64,000 nt of DNA from Arthrobacter sp. ISL-65 (GTDB lineage: Bacteria > Actinomycetota > Actinomycetes > Actinomycetales > Micrococcaceae): the NCBI RefSeq assembly GCF_018613795.1, contig NZ_JAGGPN010000032.1:1-64000 (forward strand), written 5' to 3'. The notes under the pieces were generated by a model. The model was not told the origin of the DNA. It did no database searches and saw only the letters and a list, made by a program, of their open reading frames with translations. The position numbers and the translations under genes were made by a program. Positions 4,692-12,276 of the stretch are shown here, one piece after another. Within the stretch, counting starts at the first letter, position 1. Every line of letters starts with the position of its first letter.

Positions 4692-6032
4692 CTAGAAACC
4701 GACCGTGGGTGTGGCCCTAAAGGCGTTGACAGCCCTATCTGCGATAACTTGGGCGTCACTTCCGGAATCAAGGATCGTATTCCGAGCTGATTCGGAATCG
4801 ACCATGACGGCCGTAACGGCGAGGCCGTCCGAAGCCTCGGTCGTCAAGAGAGCGTCCACCTGAGCCGAGAAGCAGTCGTCACTTGACTTGGAGTGAACGT
4901 CCATCGCCACCACGTGGTTGTTGGAGACGAAGTTGCCAACCCCCGCGATCAGCCGGATGATGACAGGCGTCGCACCTGTCGGCCGGATGCTCTGTGAGTC
5001 GATGATCTGGGAGAAGTGGTTGCCGATGACAGAGTTGTTGTTGCCGCTGACACAGAGAAGTCCGTTGAGGTCGTTCAGTCCGTTGTCGACTCCCAGGAAG
5101 GGCGTCCAGGGCTCATGGTCACGCAGGAAGTGATTCGTGGCCACGAGGTTTTCCGAACTATTCGCTGCGAGAATCAGCATCCCAGGGTAGAACGAATGCA
5201 AACGGTTGTTGGTGACGCTTGAACGCGTGACGCCGTCGAGATGGACGCTGCTCGCGCCACGGGGGAAGACGTTGTTCGCGGTTATCAGGAGCCCGCCATG
5301 GTTCTTCGCGTAGATCGAGTGACCCTTGAAGCCTGCTCCGACCAAGTTGTCGGTGATCTTTGATGCCTGTCCCCACCCGCGCAGCTCGATGCAGCTTCCG
5401 CATTCAGCGATGAAGTTGTCGTGAACGGAAAGCGCGTCCGCGTTGTAGATAGTGAGGGCGTTCTCAAGGTAGACGAACCCCATGCCGGTTACGCGGAATG
5501 AGTCATTGGCGTTTGCGACATAGATACCGGTCTTGCCGTTGACGTAGGTGTTCTCCGGATGCATCCCCGAGCCATCCGAGTCGAAGTGCAACCCGTCGAT
5601 GCAGAAGTTGGAGAACTCGACCGAGCTGATCCGCGGGCTCCCGCTTCGCTCAACGTAGAAGGCGGCTCCCTTGGATTCCTCCCCGTCTCCGCCGAGGGGA
5701 ATGTCGACGAGAATGCGGCTCCCTCCGGGCCACAGCTCATGCAAGTCGGGCCATTCGTCTTCGGGAACGTTGAACCGAATGCTCGACGACGTAAAGCCGT
5801 GTCCCGAGCCATGGATTTTGAGGAAGCTGACATCGATCACCACCTGCGTACGAAGGTGGTAGTCCCCGGGCGGAATGTAGATCACCGCGCCTGGCTTTCC
5901 TCCATTGTTCGCATCGGTTTCGGTCTGCCGGTCCTTGATGTCAGCGATGATGCTGTTGATTACTTCACCGACGTCCTTGTACGGATTGCCGACGGGCCAC
6001 GTAGTCACGTCGTAGTAGTTGTTGCTTGACAT
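4692..6032 (-). CDS. GH91 enzyme: probable intracellular difructose-anhydride III hydrolase
   Basis: A 446-residue right-handed beta-helix protein of the inulin fructotransferase family (GH91). The N-terminal strands and the catalytic stretch (HDNFIAECGSCIEL) are recognisable. D205 and E216 are 11 residues apart, as is the Asp/Glu pair I recall for the Bacillus inulin fructotransferase. There is no signal peptide: the protein starts at MSSNNYYDV right after a GGGAAG ribosome site. Inulin fructotransferases are secreted. Arthrobacter DFA-III hydrolases are cytosolic and about 445 residues, so hydrolysis of imported DFA-III to inulobiose is the better guess. A DFA-I-acting or synthase role cannot be excluded. 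It is the last gene of the fructan locus. Confidence 0.88.
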   Translation of the reverse strand: MSSNNYYDVTTWPVGNPYKDVGEVINSIIADIKDRQTETDANNGGKPGAVIYIPPGDYHLRTQVVIDVSFLKIHGSGHGFTSSSIRFNVPEDEWPDLHELWPGGSRILVDIPLGGDGEESKGAAFYVERSGSPRISSVEFSNFCIDGLHFDSDGSGMHPENTYVNGKTGIYVANANDSFRVTGMGFVYLENALTIYNADALSVHDNFIAECGSCIELRGWGQASKITDNLVGAGFKGHSIYAKNHGGLLITANNVFPRGASSVHLDGVTRSSVTNNRLHSFYPGMLILAANSSENLVATNHFLRDHEPWTPFLGVDNGLNDLNGLLCVSGNNNSVIGNHFSQIIDSQSIRPTGATPVIIRLIAGVGNFVSNNHVVAMDVHSKSSDDCFSAQVDALLTTEASDGLAVTAVMVDSESARNTILDSGSDAQVIADRAVNAFRATPTVGF

Positions 6033-6059
6033 AGGTTCTTCCCTTTGTGTTGTGGTTTC

Positions 6060-6098
6060 TCAGCCCTTGACGGCGCCGAGAGTCAGGCCAGCCACGAG
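6060..6098 (-). pseudogene. Fossil C-terminus of an ABC sugar permease
   Basis: On the minus strand this stretch reads VAGLTLGAVKG then TGA. The intact permease at 8987 ends VAGMTLGAVKG then TAA. The bases after both stops are also alike (AAACCACAAC versus AAACCACCAACAAC). Only about 13 codons remain between the GH32 stop and the GH91 start. I read it as the scar of a deletion that removed a second malG-like permease, or that joined GH91 to a permease tail. Confidence 0.75.
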
Positions 6099-6110
6099 GC
6101 ACCTGCAGGG

Positions 6111-7694
6111 TTAGGTGAGTGTTGAGACCGCGAGCTTCAGTATTGTTGCTGAGCCTCCCTCAGCCGACAGCCAGTTCTCCGGGTTTTTGGTTTCGGGGAA
6201 GATGAGATCAGTCAGGACGACCTTGCCGCCCTGGACGAATATTTCGACCGAGCAGTGGTCCACGACGATGAGCAATTTGAGCACACCGTTTTCAAGGTCA
6301 ACTGGTGCTGACTCGACCGAGGCGAATTTCCCGTGGAAGCAGGTGTTTCCTGATTGTCTGCGGTCAAGGATGAGTTGGGCGCTGGCTGCGTTGTAGCTAA
6401 GAATGGTGCCCTTGCTCCCGTCACTGCTTCCGAAGAGCCGGAAATCAAAACGTTCGGCGCTTCCGGGCAGTATCTCCGCCTCGATGATTTGGGCGCTACC
6501 GGGTACCGCATCCGGCAGCCGGAGGGCTGAATTTCGCAGCTCAAAGGTGTCTGCGTTCATTTGGTCCTTGGCACTAGGCAGCTCTTCTCCTCCGCAGATG
6601 TCGGCCAGGACCGGTTGCTGGATCAGACGGGCGGAGCCGTTGACTGCTGTGAGGCGCACTTCGCGGGCGAGGGTCATCGAGGACCGCCAGGGGGCGGTGG
6701 GCAGCTCGTTGGCGTAGTCCCAGTTGTTCATCCAGCCGATGATGATGCGCCGGTCATCCGGGGCGTTGCTAAAGGATACGGACGCGTAGCAGTCGCGTCC
6801 CCAGTCCAGCCACAGGCATTGTTGCAAGGCATCGAAGCCCGCCTCGGGGTCGGGGAGGGAAGTCACCCCTGCTGGCGCCGCGAGTGAATCGGCGTCCGGA
6901 ATGAACCGGGCGCCGTCGAACTGCCCGATGAAGTACTGGCCGCCGGAACCTCCTGCCACTGCGCCGGGGTTGATGTTTACGATCAGTACCCATTTGATGT
7001 TGTCTGGGTCTCCGTCCACCGCCAGGGGAAAGAGATCGGGGCACTCCCATTCGCCGGCGTCTGCGTTGGCCGGGCCGAAGTCGCTCAGAAAGTCCCAGGA
7101 TTTGAGGTCTTCCGAACCATAGAAGACCACCTTTTGGTGCTGCGCTTCGACGGCGACCATGACCCAGCAGGGACCTTGGTCCCCTTGATGGCGGAAGACT
7201 TTGGGATCGCGGAAGTTCGCGGAGTTTCTGGTGAGGACAGGGTTTCCTTCGTATTTTCGCCACGTCATTCCTGCGTCTGTGCTGTAGGCCAGAGACTGGG
7301 CCTGCGTGCCGCTGTGTTCGGACGCGGCTTTGTAGGCACTGGTGTAAATGGCTACGAGGGCAGGTGCGTCCGCCGTGCCGAAACCGGACGTGTTGCCGTG
7401 GTCGACTACGACGCTCCCTGAGAAGATGTCCTCCGTCTCGTCGCAGGCAATGGCAACAGGGTGTTCCGTCCAGTGCAGCAAATCACGGGAGGTGGCGTGG
7501 CCCCAGGACATGTTGCCCCAGACGTTGCCGTACGGGTTGTTCTGGAAGAAGAGGTGGTACAGGCCGTCGTAGAAAACCAGGCCATTGGGATCGTTCAGCC
7601 AGGTATCCCTAGCCGTGAAGTGGATGGCAGGCCGGAACCTGGAGGTTCCGGCCTGGGCTGTATCCGGGCGTGCGGCGTCAAGGCAACTGGACAT
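6111..7694 (-). CDS. Intracellular GH32 beta-fructosidase (exo-inulinase/levanase type)
   Basis: A 527-residue glycoside hydrolase that should release fructose from fructan fragments. The three GH32 signatures are present: WLNDPNG with nucleophile D35, FRDPKV with D163, and EWECPDLF with acid/base E217. Residues 20-340 form the five-bladed propeller, and about 370-525 the beta-sandwich. There is no signal peptide, so it acts on imported oligosaccharides such as inulobiose. It lies 38 bp after the lacI stop, in the same direction, and upstream of GH91. Sucrose hydrolysis is an alternative. Confidence 0.93.
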   Translation of the reverse strand: MSSCLDAARPDTAQAGTSRFRPAIHFTARDTWLNDPNGLVFYDGLYHLFFQNNPYGNVWGNMSWGHATSRDLLHWTEHPVAIACDETEDIFSGSVVVDHGNTSGFGTADAPALVAIYTSAYKAASEHSGTQAQSLAYSTDAGMTWRKYEGNPVLTRNSANFRDPKVFRHQGDQGPCWVMVAVEAQHQKVVFYGSEDLKSWDFLSDFGPANADAGEWECPDLFPLAVDGDPDNIKWVLIVNINPGAVAGGSGGQYFIGQFDGARFIPDADSLAAPAGVTSLPDPEAGFDALQQCLWLDWGRDCYASVSFSNAPDDRRIIIGWMNNWDYANELPTAPWRSSMTLAREVRLTAVNGSARLIQQPVLADICGGEELPSAKDQMNADTFELRNSALRLPDAVPGSAQIIEAEILPGSAERFDFRLFGSSDGSKGTILSYNAASAQLILDRRQSGNTCFHGKFASVESAPVDLENGVLKLLIVVDHCSVEIFVQGGKVVLTDLIFPETKNPENWLSAEGGSATILKLAVSTLT

Positions 7695-7732: not shown

Positions 7733-8776
7733 CTATTGCCGGGGAGCCGCGATGGAATCGCGGCGCACCAGGGGGCAGTCCAGGATGGTCGGGTGATGTG
7801 CCATGAGGGCAAGGTCGGTCTTGCCTTCGATGGCATCTATGAGGTTTTCAATGGCCCATGCGCCCATCTCATAGTGGGGCAGGGCGACGGTGGTCAGGGC
7901 GGGGTAGAGATTCTCGGCAATCAGCTGCTGGTTATCGAAGCCGACGAACGAGACATCCTGCGGAATCCTGAGGCCAAGCTCGGCGGCCGCCCGGTATGCG
8001 CCCATGGCCATGCGGTCGTTGTAGCAGAAGACCGCGGTGGGCCGGCTGTCCGTGCCCAGGAGGCGCAGCGCCGCCTCGTAGCCGCCGGGAACCTCCGAGT
8101 GTTCGGACTGGACCAGATCCTCGTGGAAAGGGAGTCCGGCCGCTGCCAGAGTCTCCCGGAAGGCCTGGAGCCGTGAATGGGTCGCCGGCACGTCGTCGGT
8201 GTTGTTGATCATGCCGATCCGCGAGTGTCCGGCATCGATGAGGGTCTGCACGGCGGACCTTGCGCCGCCGATTTCGTCCGGAATGACGCACGAAACGGTG
8301 TGGCTGATGTCCTCGGAGTCCACCAGGACGGACGGCAGGGCGGCTAGGTTTTTGGGGACGGCCAGCTTGCGGTGGTACATGGTCGCGTACAGGATTCCGT
8401 CCACCTGCCGGTCCAGGAGATCGGCCACGTCGCTCTCCCGGGAGTCGTCGGTGCCCGTGCTGGTGGAGTTGATGATCATGAGGTTGTAGCCCCGGGCGCG
8501 CGCGGATTCCTCTGCACCGAGGATGATCCTGCCGGCGTGCGGCGTGGTGGCAATTTCCTCGCTGATGAAGCCGATCATGCCGGAGCGCTGCGTGCGGAGT
8601 GCGCGGGCCACCCGGTTCGGTCCGTAGCCCAGACGCTGGGCGGCCTCGTGGACGCGTTCCCTCGTCTCCACGCCGACACGGGCGTACGCAACATCGTTCA
8701 GGACGTGGGAGACAGTCGTGACGGAAACACCGGCGGCGGCAGCAACGTCCTTGATGCCCACTGACCTGTTATTCAT
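7733..8776 (-). CDS. LacI-family regulator of the fructan locus
   Basis: A 347-residue repressor. The N-terminal helix-turn-helix and hinge are clear (IKDVAAAAGVSVTTVSHVLN, then RVARALRTQRSG). The rest is a periplasmic-binding-like sensor (about 60-335). Length is typical. It lies between the transporter genes and the GH32 gene on the same strand. A LacI-type operator at 12259-12276, upstream of the binding-protein gene, is the likely target. The inducer is presumably a fructan fragment or DFA. Confidence 0.92.
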   Translation of the reverse strand: MNNRSVGIKDVAAAAGVSVTTVSHVLNDVAYARVGVETRERVHEAAQRLGYGPNRVARALRTQRSGMIGFISEEIATTPHAGRIILGAEESARARGYNLMIINSTSTGTDDSRESDVADLLDRQVDGILYATMYHRKLAVPKNLAALPSVLVDSEDISHTVSCVIPDEIGGARSAVQTLIDAGHSRIGMINNTDDVPATHSRLQAFRETLAAAGLPFHEDLVQSEHSEVPGGYEAALRLLGTDSRPTAVFCYNDRMAMGAYRAAAELGLRIPQDVSFVGFDNQQLIAENLYPALTTVALPHYEMGAWAIENLIDAIEGKTDLALMAHHPTILDCPLVRRDSIAAPRQ

Positions 8777-8823
8777 GTGTCTCCCACGTCCTTATGGTTG
8801 GTGAAGCTCTTGAGGGGCCGGGT

Positions 8824-8943
8824 TTACTCGGCGTGCATGCGGGTCTGGTACCAGTAGGCTACCGAGGAATAGTCGGTGCCCTGGCGCCAAGCCGTTGAGC
8901 GGGCTATGTGGCTGCCAAAATTCCACGTTTCTTGCGTACCTTT
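8824..8943 (-). pseudogene. Fossil C-terminus of a GH172/DUF2961 enzyme
   Basis: Reading the minus strand, the last 19 codons before a TAA end in DYSSVAYWYQTRMHAE. The pattern DYSSVAYWYQ is the hallmark C-terminal motif I associate with DUF2961, now GH172. The frame stays open upstream to about 8943, but no domain is left, and the permease stop at 8987 follows. GH172 includes alpha-fructofuranosidase/difructose-dianhydride I enzymes, which fits this locus. No start codon or ribosome site is apparent. I infer that most of the gene was deleted. Confidence 0.7.
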
Positions 8944-8986
8944 CGATTTTCCCGTGCGGGTTGTTGTTCGATTCGTTGTTGGTGGT

Positions 8987-9934
8987 TTAGCCCTTGACGG
9001 CGCCGAGCGTCATGCCTGCGACGATCTTGCGCTGCAAGAGAAGGGTGAGGAGGATGACCGGGATGGAGTACACGGCGGCCAGCGCCGTCATGGATCCCCA
9101 GTCCAGGCCGAACTGGGTCTGGAAGTTTGCGATCACCACGGGGGTGGTCTGGGAGCGGATCGCAGTCATCAGGAGGGCGAAAAGGAATTCGTTCCAGGAG
9201 GCCAGGAAGGCGAAGATCGCGGTAACGGCGATGCCGCCGGAGACCACCGGGATCACCACCCGCCAGAGGGCGCCGAGCCTGCTGCAACCGTCCACCGTGG
9301 CGGCCTCTTCCAAGTCGTTGGGAACGGCTTCGAAGAAGCTGGACATCAGCCAGATGGAGAGCGGCAGGGAGATCGTGGTGTGGGCAATGGACAGCGCGAC
9401 AGGAGTGTCGGCGAGGCCCAAGGACGCCATCATGGATGCCAGTGGAATGCCGATGGCCACGGGCGGCACCATGCGGGTGACGAGGGCAGCCATGATGAAG
9501 ATCCGGCCGCTGAGGGTCTTGTACCGGGTGATGCCGTAGGCCGCCGGTACCGCCAGTACCAGCGACAGCACAGTGCTGATGATGGCCGTCTGGACGCTGT
9601 TGATGAAGGAAGCCAGGACGCCGCTGCGGCCCAGTGCGTTGGTGTAGTTCTCCAGCGTCCATTCCCTGGGGAGGATGGTCGGCGGTACCGCGATGGTATC
9701 TATGGGGGTTTTGAAGGATGTGAAGAGCAGGTACAGGAAGGGGAACCCGTAGAGCACCATCGCCGCGGCGAGGAGGACCCAGAGCAGGGTCCGGGTACTC
9801 CGACGGCCTGCTTCCAGGCCTTCCCGGTTGACACCCCGACGCCTATAGGGTCGCGTGGCGGTGTGCACGGCAGGTTCCGTGGGCACTCCGGCCGGCGCCC
9901 CGGCGTCGTGCGTTGTTCGTTCAGCTACGCGCAT
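8987..9934 (-). CDS. ABC sugar permease, MalG type
   Basis: A 315-residue inner-membrane permease with six predicted helices after a 45-residue basic N-terminal extension. The EAA loop reads EAATVDGCSRLGALWRVVIP, where the ATPase docks. It ends in the family tail VAGMTLGAVKG. Its start codon overlaps the stop of the upstream permease (position 9934), so the two are translationally coupled. No ATPase gene is nearby, as is common in actinobacteria that share an MsiK-type ATPase. Likely cargo: fructan oligosaccharides or difructose anhydrides. Confidence 0.92.
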   Translation of the reverse strand: MRVAERTTHDAGAPAGVPTEPAVHTATRPYRRRGVNREGLEAGRRSTRTLLWVLLAAAMVLYGFPFLYLLFTSFKTPIDTIAVPPTILPREWTLENYTNALGRSGVLASFINSVQTAIISTVLSLVLAVPAAYGITRYKTLSGRIFIMAALVTRMVPPVAIGIPLASMMASLGLADTPVALSIAHTTISLPLSIWLMSSFFEAVPNDLEEAATVDGCSRLGALWRVVIPVVSGGIAVTAIFAFLASWNEFLFALLMTAIRSQTTPVVIANFQTQFGLDWGSMTALAAVYSIPVILLTLLLQRKIVAGMTLGAVKG

Positions 9935-10821
9935 CAGCTGTCCTTTCCTGGCCGCCAGATGGTGGACACCGCGACGAATGCGACGGCGAGCATGGCCAGC
10001 AGGTAGAGGGTGCCCATGGCGCTGGCCAGTCCGGGGTCACCAAAGCGGATCATGGTCCGGTAGATCAGCAGGCTCATGGTTTCCGAGGCGGATTGTGGGC
10101 CGCCGTTGGTTTGGATGAGGATGGTATCGAACGCGCGGGCTGCGTCAATTCCGCGGACCACCAGCGCCACGGCGATGACAGGCCGCAGGAGGGGCAGGAT
10201 GATGCGGAACAGCAGCGCTGGTGCGCGTGCACCGTCCAGGCGTGCTGCTTCGATCAGGTCCCCGGGAATGTTCTGGAGTCCTGCAAAGAGCACCAGGCAC
10301 ATGAACGATGTGGTCAGCCAGATGTCTGGGATGGCCACGGAAAAGAGCACGATGCCCGGATCCGACAGCCAGCCGATCTGGTTGGGGTTGGACAGGACGC
10401 CGGCCTGGTGCAGGAGAGTCCCGATGAGGCCGAAGTTGTCGATCATCAGGAACTTCCAGAGGAGACCTGCCACGATAGGCGCGATCATCAGCGGATACAT
10501 AAAGACGGTCCGCCAGATTTGGGAGCTGCGCCCGAGGGCGGTGAACAGCAGAGCCATTCCCAGCCCCAAGGCGAATTCGAGGGTGACCACCACCAGGGTG
10601 TAGGCCAGGGTCCGCCATCCGGCACCCGTGAAGGCCTCGGAGGCGAAGGCCCGGAAGTAGTTGTCCAGGCCCACGAAGTCGCGGGGGCCGCCCGCTATCG
10701 GTGAGATCTTGAAGAAGCTGTCCGCCACGAGGCGGAACAGAGGGAAAGCCACAAAAACTGCAAGAAACAGCGCCGCTGGTGTCATCAGGAACAATGCGAA
10801 ACGGCGATCGGAGATGCGCAC
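9934..10821 (-). CDS. ABC sugar permease, MalF type
   Basis: A 295-residue permease with six hydrophobic helices, the first starting at about residue 8, and an EAA loop (EAARLDGARAPALLFRIILP). It pairs with the MalG-type gene, overlapping it by one base. The binding-protein gene lies 66 bp upstream. A 14-bp hairpin in that gap probably lowers read-through or protects the upstream mRNA, giving more binding protein than permease. Confidence 0.92.
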   Translation of the reverse strand: MRISDRRFALFLMTPAALFLAVFVAFPLFRLVADSFFKISPIAGGPRDFVGLDNYFRAFASEAFTGAGWRTLAYTLVVVTLEFALGLGMALLFTALGRSSQIWRTVFMYPLMIAPIVAGLLWKFLMIDNFGLIGTLLHQAGVLSNPNQIGWLSDPGIVLFSVAIPDIWLTTSFMCLVLFAGLQNIPGDLIEAARLDGARAPALLFRIILPLLRPVIAVALVVRGIDAARAFDTILIQTNGGPQSASETMSLLIYRTMIRFGDPGLASAMGTLYLLAMLAVAFVAVSTIWRPGKDS

Positions 10822-10887: not shown

Positions 10888-12171
10888 TTACTTGAGGAGG
10901 TCCTCGATCTGCTTCTTGGCATCGGCGAGGAGGGTGGCGGAGTCACCGCCGGCCACGGCCTTCTGCAGCATGGGAACCAGGACGGTGTCCACGATCTGCT
11001 GCCACTTCTCGGTGGCCGGGCGGGTGGCAGTGGCGTTGCCCTTGAGGGTTTCGATCAGCGGCTTAAAGCTCTCGTAGCCTGCCTTGTCCTGGTACTTCTC
11101 AAAAGCAGAGATGCGGGAGGCCAGGCCCAGGCTGGATTCGATGCCCATGCTGTTGTAGTCGTAGGCGCACTTGACGAACTTCTTGGCCGCGTCCATGTTC
11201 TTGGTGGCCTTCGGGACGGTGAGGTACCAAGGGCCGGGAACGGCCCCGACGCCGGCAGAACCGGCGATCATGGGAGCCGCTCCCACTTTGCCGGCCACCG
11301 GTGAATCCTTGGGAATCTGCCGGTAGGCGTGGGCCCAGAAACGTGTCATCGCCGTCTTGCCCTGGTTGAACAGGTTTTGCGCGGCGGCCCAGTCCACCTG
11401 CGCGGCACCGGAGGGAGCGGATTTGGCAAGGCCGACGTAGAAATCAAGCGCTTCCTTGTGGGCGGCGTTGTCAATGACCACCTTGTTGTTCTCGTCCAGG
11501 ACCATCGGCGAGCCGGCCTGCAGGACGTGGGACAGCCATTCGGTTTCCACACCGCCCTTGACGTCCGTGCCGAACATGCCGTCCTTGGTAAAGAACTCGG
11601 AGATGTCCTGATACTGCTTCCAAGTGGTGGGGGCGGCCAGGTCGTAGCCATACTTGGTCTTGAAATCGGCCTTGTTCTTGGCGTCTTCGAACAGGTCCTT
11701 GCGGTACAGGATGATTTCGGCGTTGGTCCAGGCGGGCATGCCGATGAAGTGCCCGTCCACGTTGGCTTCCTTGACCAGGGCCGGGAAGATATCCTTTTTC
11801 GCCTCGTCGGTGAAAAGCTCGTCAATGGGCTGGACGGCGTCCTTGAAGCTAGGCAGCCATACTGAGTCCAGGGCGGCCACGTCGAAGGAAACGTTGCCGG
11901 AGGAAAATTCGCTGGAGAGTCGGTTGAACATGCCGTCGTAAGGCAGTTCGACGAAGTTGGCGCTAACGCCTGTTTCTTTCTTGCACTGTTCGGCCACACC
12001 TGTCAGTTCGGCGTGGCCACCGGCCTCGACGAGGACGTTGACTGTGCTGGCGCCGGCGCTACCCGACGTTGCAGCCGGGCCCCCCGCGCCGCAGGCGGTT
12101 GCTGCCAGAAGCACCGCGGTGGACAGCCCGCCAATGGCGGTGATCCGGGAAATCGTGGTTCGAGAGGACAT
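10888..12171 (-). CDS. ABC sugar-binding lipoprotein
   Basis: A 427-residue extracellular solute-binding protein (SBP_bac_1 type). It starts MSSRTT, eight bases after an AAAGGGAG ribosome site. The longer open frame upstream has no such site and would spoil the signal. The signal peptide ends in a lipobox ATAC with lipid Cys27. The mature part has the family features (TYLTVPKATKN, KFVKCAYDY). It heads the transporter operon. A LacI operator 88 bp upstream points to induction by the sugar. Confidence 0.93.
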   Translation of the reverse strand: MSSRTTISRITAIGGLSTAVLLAATACGAGGPAATSGSAGASTVNVLVEAGGHAELTGVAEQCKKETGVSANFVELPYDGMFNRLSSEFSSGNVSFDVAALDSVWLPSFKDAVQPIDELFTDEAKKDIFPALVKEANVDGHFIGMPAWTNAEIILYRKDLFEDAKNKADFKTKYGYDLAAPTTWKQYQDISEFFTKDGMFGTDVKGGVETEWLSHVLQAGSPMVLDENNKVVIDNAAHKEALDFYVGLAKSAPSGAAQVDWAAAQNLFNQGKTAMTRFWAHAYRQIPKDSPVAGKVGAAPMIAGSAGVGAVPGPWYLTVPKATKNMDAAKKFVKCAYDYNSMGIESSLGLASRISAFEKYQDKAGYESFKPLIETLKGNATATRPATEKWQQIVDTVLVPMLQKAVAGGDSATLLADAKKQIEDLLK

Positions 12172-12258
12172 CGCTGTCGACTCCCTTTCTTTTGAACGGA
12201 ATCTACGGTTGGGGTGATGAGGTCTGGAACTCAAGTCATTGTCGGTGAAAAACCGTTT

Positions 12259-12276
12259 TGCCAAATCGACTTGGCA
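12259..12276. promoter_or_regulatory. LacI-type operator of the fructan transporter operon
   Basis: TGCCAAATCGACTTGGCA is an 18-bp dyad centred on CG, with one mismatch per nine-base half. That is the classical form of LacI-family operators. It lies upstream of the binding-protein gene and is probably bound by the LacI protein encoded at 7733-8776. Confidence 0.7.

Follow-up and report, generated by a model that had tools for sequence, protein, structure and literature searches.

One of the closest described systems is alphaFFase1 of Bifidobacterium dentium (PDB 7v1v), a DFA I synthase/hydrolase of family GH172/DUF2961 (PF11175). As described in the available part of PMC8605356, alphaFFase1 uses DFA I but not DFA III as a substrate, and its catalytic residues are Glu270 and Glu291. 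Another is the DFA-III hydrolase pathway of Arthrobacter, in which an intracellular GH91 DFA-III hydrolase (DFA-IIIase) is combined with GH32 (available parts of PMC11538131 and PMC8605356). A putative DFA-I pathway of Streptomyces davawensis is likewise comparable and is described, in the available part of PMC8605356, as a three-stage route with a DFA-I-forming GH91 enzyme, GH172, and GH32. We found no report of the GH172 relic presented below in the open-licence literature.

The locus studied here lies in the window, which is the whole stretch of 64,000 nucleotides of Arthrobacter sp. ISL-65 DNA that was analysed. It resembles the published Arthrobacter pathway in having a DFA-IIIase, a GH32 enzyme, an ABC importer, and a LacI-family regulator, all encoded on the minus strand. 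Read along that strand, the locus carries genes for an ABC solute-binding protein (10888..12264), ABC permease 1 (9934..10821), ABC permease 2 (8987..9934; PF00528), the LacI-family regulator (7733..8776; PF00356 and PF13377), a GH32 beta-fructofuranosidase (6111..7694; PF00251 and PF08244), and the GH91 DFA-IIIase (4692..6032). The GH91 protein matches the DFA-IIIase 5zks with 833 bits over 446 aa, compared to 358 and 349 bits for other matches (358 for a DFA-III-forming inulin fructotransferase), and it is classed as a DFA-IIIase. Its gene is the only GH91 match in the 75 contigs of the genome, and therefore the strain may feed on DFA III that other organisms produce.

Permease 2 and lacI are the upstream and downstream neighbors of what we call the slot. 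In the window, a scar of about 0.1 kb sits there, between the sugar-importer gene and the repressor gene. We are very confident that a GH172 gene was lost from this importer-lacI locus by internal deletion, and that a DFA-IIIase is there now.

The GH172 relic in the window

From sequence comparison, the minus strand of 8824-8943 is confirmed as a relic of a GH172/DUF2961 gene. One frame of minus strand 8994-8824 reads ...QETWNFGSHIARSTAWRQGTDYSSVAYWYQTRMHAE*, with its stop codon at 8826-8824. A sequence-only reading of this DNA had taken DYSSVAYWYQ before a stop as the signature of GH172/DUF2961, and the family call was right, as judged by a DNA match to an intact gene and an orthologue in the slot. 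The same reading had treated all of 8824-8943 as a C-terminal fossil. This is correct for 8884-8824; 8943-8886 is the start of the gene, read in the frame of its end.

The C-terminal stub (QGTDYSSVAYWYQTRMHAE plus TAA) occupies 8824..8884 on the minus strand and matches the intact Kocuria polaris gene at DNA level. Aligned with the end of the intact gene, window 8905-8820 gives a 55-bp ungapped match with a score of 60 (best of 200 shuffles, 31). In eight congeners the stub runs on as ...HAHHEELPPVEERLPRRWPEHGLWDE* or a decayed form of it, and relative to congeners the window has a 69-bp deletion between 8831 and 8830. The N-terminal stub ([M]EFWQP.SPLNGLA) occupies 8886..8926 on the minus strand and matches the start of the intact gene. 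Window 8986-8900 scores 30 against that start (best of 200 shuffles, 28), which is narrow taken alone; the N-terminal call is made because the stub is in the right place and congeners read ATG-EFWQP like the intact gene. The start codon is GTG in the window and ATG in congeners, and the region of the old start codon reads MEF[WR]QP in six of eight congeners and MEPEQP in two. Thus each stub has its counterpart in the intact Kocuria gene of the same slot, and the relic descends from a GH172 gene.

An internal deletion of about 0.95 kb has brought the two stubs together in different frames, and eight congeners have the same junction. Slot alignment places a leader with purine-rich GAAAGGTACGCAAGAAAC at 8927..8986 (minus strand), where it separates the permease stop from the former GH172 start codon. 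On the other side, 8777..8823 (minus strand) is an intergenic tail with the lacI ribosome-binding region.

Profile comparison with GH172, which the sequence-only reading had proposed, gave no Pfam score for this short piece. Pfam matched zero families in window 8827-8943 (minus strand), PF11175 included, and it scored neither the 39-aa window piece nor the 58-aa version from a relative; pieces this short at the end of the model are uninformative. The case for GH172 therefore comes from orthologues and not from a profile match of the window piece. A peptide that arises by chance from intergenic DNA would agree with so short a piece going unscored, but the DNA score is about twice that of the best shuffle, both ends of the gene are present, and intact orthologues in the same slot refute it; we give this explanation practically no chance.

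Intact orthologues and loss in the genus

Intact members of the family are useful for reconstructing the ancestral gene order. A family-wide PF11175 search covered 395 genomes, and 17 had a match. In Kocuria polaris CD08_4 (G416), the GH172 protein starts MEFWQPNSPLNGLA and ends GNDFSSVAYWYQTGTHAHHEELPSVEERLPRRWPEHGLWDE, and its gene lies directly before lacI in the order GH91, GH32, solute-binding protein, permease 1, permease 2, GH172, lacI. The window proteins are 62% (solute-binding protein), 71% (permease 1), and 72% (permease 2) identical to those of Kocuria. The Kocuria GH172 protein has 373 aa and matches PF11175 with 284 bits (8.5e-85), and its best match among solved structures is alphaFFase1 (7v1v; 265 bits). 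In the alignment to 7v1v, Kocuria Glu247 and Glu269 correspond to the catalytic Glu270 and Glu291, and the positions of alphaFFase1 Trp267, Glu270, Glu291, Asp292, and Trp298 are conserved. Among 27 genomes of the genus of G416, the slot GH172 was found in G416 only (E 1e-30), suggesting that it is patchy in that genus too.

A scan of named genomes considered the best 80 of 539 relatives, 23 of which were mapped. As the sequence-only reading had expected of sister genomes, relatives such as Kocuria polaris, Kribbella, and Micromonospora carry an intact GH172 between permease and lacI. Homologues of the solute-binding protein and of both permeases adjoin GH172 in 20 of 20 intact loci of 66-100% identity (L115-L133 and L139; best 80 of 539). 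Within the same best 80 of 539, the importer genes are upstream of GH172 in 17 of these loci and downstream in three, and lacI is directly downstream in 10. Among the matches listed, the loci with lacI are from Kocuria, two Kribbella, Nonomuraea, three Micromonospora, Actinoplanes, Dactylosporangium, and one metagenome bin. Importer adjacency was absent at the three distant GH172 loci mapped (L134, L164, and L184; 49-56% identity; best 80 of 539). In a tree of 57 rows, the 20 slot-type loci form one clade with 100/100 support, separate from alphaFFase1-type genes, except that the row of L132 represents the second, alphaFFase1-type GH172 of that locus. L132, from a Chloroflexi genome bin, has alphaFFase1-type and slot-type GH172 genes together (1138-2490 and 6001-7119), which suggests two different specificities.

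The ancestral locus would have had the order solute-binding protein, permease 1, permease 2, GH172, lacI. Its importer may have taken up a difructose anhydride or a related alpha-fructofuranoside, which an intracellular GH172 would have opened under a LacI-family regulator. In the window's lineage, an internal deletion of about 0.95 kb then joined the first 14 or so codons of the GH172 gene to the last 42 or so, and the scar eroded differently from one species to another. Today the GH91 DFA-IIIase and GH32 of the same locus presumably carry out the hydrolytic step. An intact slot GH172 and a DFA-IIIase were not seen together in any of the loci mapped (best 80 of 539, and the slots of the genus). 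We infer that the lost enzyme hydrolyzed the imported sugar and that the DFA-IIIase took over its role.

The slot was compared across 206 genomes of the window's genus. Ninety-seven contain the permease gene (E of 1e-120 or lower), and adding G010 and G053, where the permease match is in pieces, gives 99 slots. An intact GH172 before lacI is absent from all 99, and in 36 a DFA-IIIase gene lies between permease and lacI (37 lacI genes when counted from lacI, as L107 contributes a second one). When the gene end was used to search the 206 genomes, stubs and other GH172 types were found. A PF11175 search of 150 of the 206 gave 23 matches in 22 genomes, consisting of two fragments and intact genes of two other types, as judged by their ends.

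Start, junction, and end are common to nine loci (the window and L096-L103), and L104 and L290 have the same junction in a shorter form. Stubs with only the end precede lacI in G116, G028, G189, G147, G022, G150, and G156 and at the second lacI of G102. They follow the permease, the DFA-IIIase gene, or other DNA, suggesting that the gene eroded several times or that the stub moved with lacI. In 131 plasmid records there was no GH172 match of at least 60% identity to the slot enzyme. Two plasmids of Arthrobacter sp. StoSoilB13 carry the lacI, with no stub at E 1e-6.

Before the second lacI of G102 (L112 / L023) is another GH172 end, where an inner loss removes DYSSVAYWYQ but leaves FHIEDPVRF and LPPVEERLPRRWPEHGLWDE in one frame. 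In L022 (G016) a GH172 of a third type (YRWHIPDPIYF) is truncated, with a 111-aa frame covering model positions 174-235; this truncation is an independent loss of another GH172.

Decay of the scar and a candidate control element before lacI

Substitution patterns and broken frames are useful for distinguishing remnants from working genes. In the nine full scars, changes at codon positions 1, 2, and 3 of the hybrid frame number 26, 38, and 27, and there is no third-position excess either in this frame or in the old frame within the end stub. Stops or shifts break the old frame in four of the nine copies, two of which (L102 and L103) are near-identical. Together with the internal deletion, these features identify the scar as a pseudogene remnant.

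An alternative is that the scar is a working small gene, in which translation of the hybrid frame would begin at the former GH172 start codon and could give, for instance, a leader peptide. The frame has 44 codons in the window and 36 to over 70 elsewhere, and it mostly ends shortly before lacI. It is open in 11 of 11 scar copies (the nine full ones, L104, and L290) despite divergence and several indels; the window has GTG in place of the earlier ATG start, and both the 69-bp window deletion and a 3-bp deletion in L098 keep the frame. However, changes are most numerous at codon position 2, opposite to what coding constraint would give, and three copies carry frame-shifting indels of 2 and 14 bp. 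The copies are also related and GC-rich, so open frames may come cheaply, and no such frame was seen in the other slots inspected. We regard a working small gene as very unlikely and favor a decaying remnant.

Scar identity is 0.77-0.99 in 36 pairs; in 35 of these, permease 2 is at 0.40-0.74 at four-fold sites. Selection on the whole scar was set aside as the source of this difference, since sliding comparison indicates a recombined block of scar, lacI, and GH32 that is common to several species and excludes the permease. Six loci still have similar lacI genes (L096, L097, L098, L100, L102, and L103), with scar identity of 0.80-0.99 and lacI four-fold sites at 0.86-1.00. Among their 15 pairs, the scar is less alike than the lacI four-fold sites in 10, equal in one, and more alike in four (by 0.05 at most). 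Pairs with L099 show the opposite, with the scar (0.81-0.92) more alike than the whole lacI (0.46-0.58) and the whole GH32 (0.48-0.69). In the sliding comparison, the high identity of L096-L099 extends into the first 200-300 bases of lacI. The L099 pattern fits a putative recombined tract.

The window lacI is 0.64-0.83 identical to that of L098 over most of its length; the flanking scar is 0.86-0.94 identical and most of GH32 about 0.97. The window LacI protein is 86-88% identical to LacI of G028, G116, and G156. The window lacI is thus foreign to its surroundings, pointing to a swap of the regulator alone.

Part of the relic may have a second role. GTAGCCTACT (8853..8862, minus strand) is the codons of SVAYW, and it is kept upstream of lacI in many congeners, including many short slots of about 70 bases. 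In 101 lacI upstream regions (100 loci), GTAGCCTACT is exact in 48 and present with at most one mismatch in 59, compared to 8 of 2020 shuffled regions. Among 50 direct permease-lacI slots chosen regardless of the motif, GTAGCCTACT is in 38, of which 33 have it as AGTAGCCTACT; the most widely shared 10-mer there, within the ribosome-binding stretch of lacI, occurs in 41. The slots of L230, L260, L231, L298, and L290 are intermediates between the short form and the full scar. Many short slots before lacI (e.g., L277, L282, and L240) also have a GC-rich inverted repeat, GCCCC...GGGGC, after AGTAGCCTACT.

In the 33 loci with AGTAGCCTACT, it lies 53-58 bases upstream of lacI. This set was picked for holding AGTAGCCTACT, which is invariant there by construction. 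Four-fold sites of lacI in these loci average 0.61 identity, and 6 of 138 such columns are invariant, suggesting that AGTAGCCTACT is kept and not merely recent. AGTAGCCTACT is an 11-bp palindrome with one central base, and it is the GTA codon that creates the palindrome. The corresponding Val codon is GTC, GTT, or GTG and never GTA in the 18 of 18 intact orthologues read (20 loci, two off-pattern; best 80 of 539).

These data raise the possibility that part of the relic was co-opted, with GTAGCCTACT/AGTAGCCTACT serving as an operator, a promoter part, or an RNA element; we hold this tentatively, at about one chance in three. In its favor, GTAGCCTACT is nearly as frequent as the lacI ribosome-binding stretch, and the palindrome depends on a codon absent from the intact orthologues. 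On the other hand, the motif is absent, even allowing one mismatch, in 42 of 101 lacI upstream regions, and its exact form is absent in 12 of 50 slots. Some 50 10-mers within the lacI coding sequence (about 1040 bases) are as widely shared. The GH172 origin of the short form depends on the intermediates L230, L260, and L290, and most short matches alone barely beat shuffles or fail. The alifold pairing CCUAC-GUGGG has no covariation. Unlike an operator common to the importer promoter, AGTAGCCTACT does not recur elsewhere in 19 longer loci. With zero or one occurrence per longer locus, in the slot only, a LacI operator shared with the importer promoter was rejected. The fuller proposal, that selection kept the SVAYW codons as a lacI control element while a DFA-IIIase replaced the enzyme in the importer locus, seems rather unlikely. 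It is nevertheless a concrete candidate for a coding sequence turned control element; if true, a regulatory site arose from ten to twelve bases of a defunct enzyme gene.

The lost enzyme and comparison with known systems

The slot enzyme is not an alphaFFase1 orthologue. It belongs to a separate clade, its protein ends after LPRRWPEHGLWDE, and it has 265 bits to 7v1v, compared to 554 bits for a gene elsewhere in the window's genome (contig C4, 72984-73766; L001 / L095). This second gene is an intact alphaFFase1 orthologue located between importer and GH32 genes. To our knowledge, no member of the slot GH172 clade has been assayed.

Neighboring GH91 genes may indicate the substrate. Nine of the 20 intact loci (best 80 of 539) have a GH91 in view, eight within 6 kb plus that of Kocuria. 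In eight of these nine (best 80 of 539), the GH91 has no leader peptide by eye; identity to 2inu is 47-59%. The DFA-I-forming enzyme of A. globiformis S14-3 is also leaderless and is 49.8% identical to a DFA-III-forming one (available part of PMC5448860). This likeness weakly favors DFA I. The ninth locus, from Nonomuraea (L118), has a GH91 with a leader and counts against DFA I; a Nonomuraea enzyme is listed as DFA-III-forming in the available part of PMC11538131. Scarred or stubbed congeners G170, G006, G116, and G156 keep a leaderless, DFA-I-like GH91, though their slot GH172 is gone. We consider the chances evenly balanced that DFA I was the substrate of the lost enzyme. The sequence-only reading had gone further and held that loss of a GH172 would imply an ancestor able to use a second class of fructose anhydrides. 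This is unproven, because the alphaFFase1 orthologue is intact in the same genome and the slot enzyme comes from a different GH172 clade.

Comparison with the known systems indicates both shared and distinct features. The slot orthologue keeps the catalytic positions of alphaFFase1. It differs in having 373 aa and ending about where the long C-terminal helix of alphaFFase1 begins, and in its linkage to solute-binding protein and permease genes and often to lacI; of this enzyme the window has two stubs only. The GH172 of the S. davawensis pathway is reported as 51.4% identical to alphaFFase1 in the available part of PMC8605356, and by this identity it is probably nearer to the C4 gene than to the slot clade. 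Neither the GH172 slot nor its relic is among the parts described for the Arthrobacter DFA-III pathway in the available parts of its publications. The slot clade, with at least 20 intact loci in Actinomycetota, Chloroflexota, Bacillota, and Pseudomonadota, is tied to one kind of importer. Intact and decayed states can be seen side by side, as expected of a fructan-anhydride locus that swapped its hydrolase and kept its importer and regulator.
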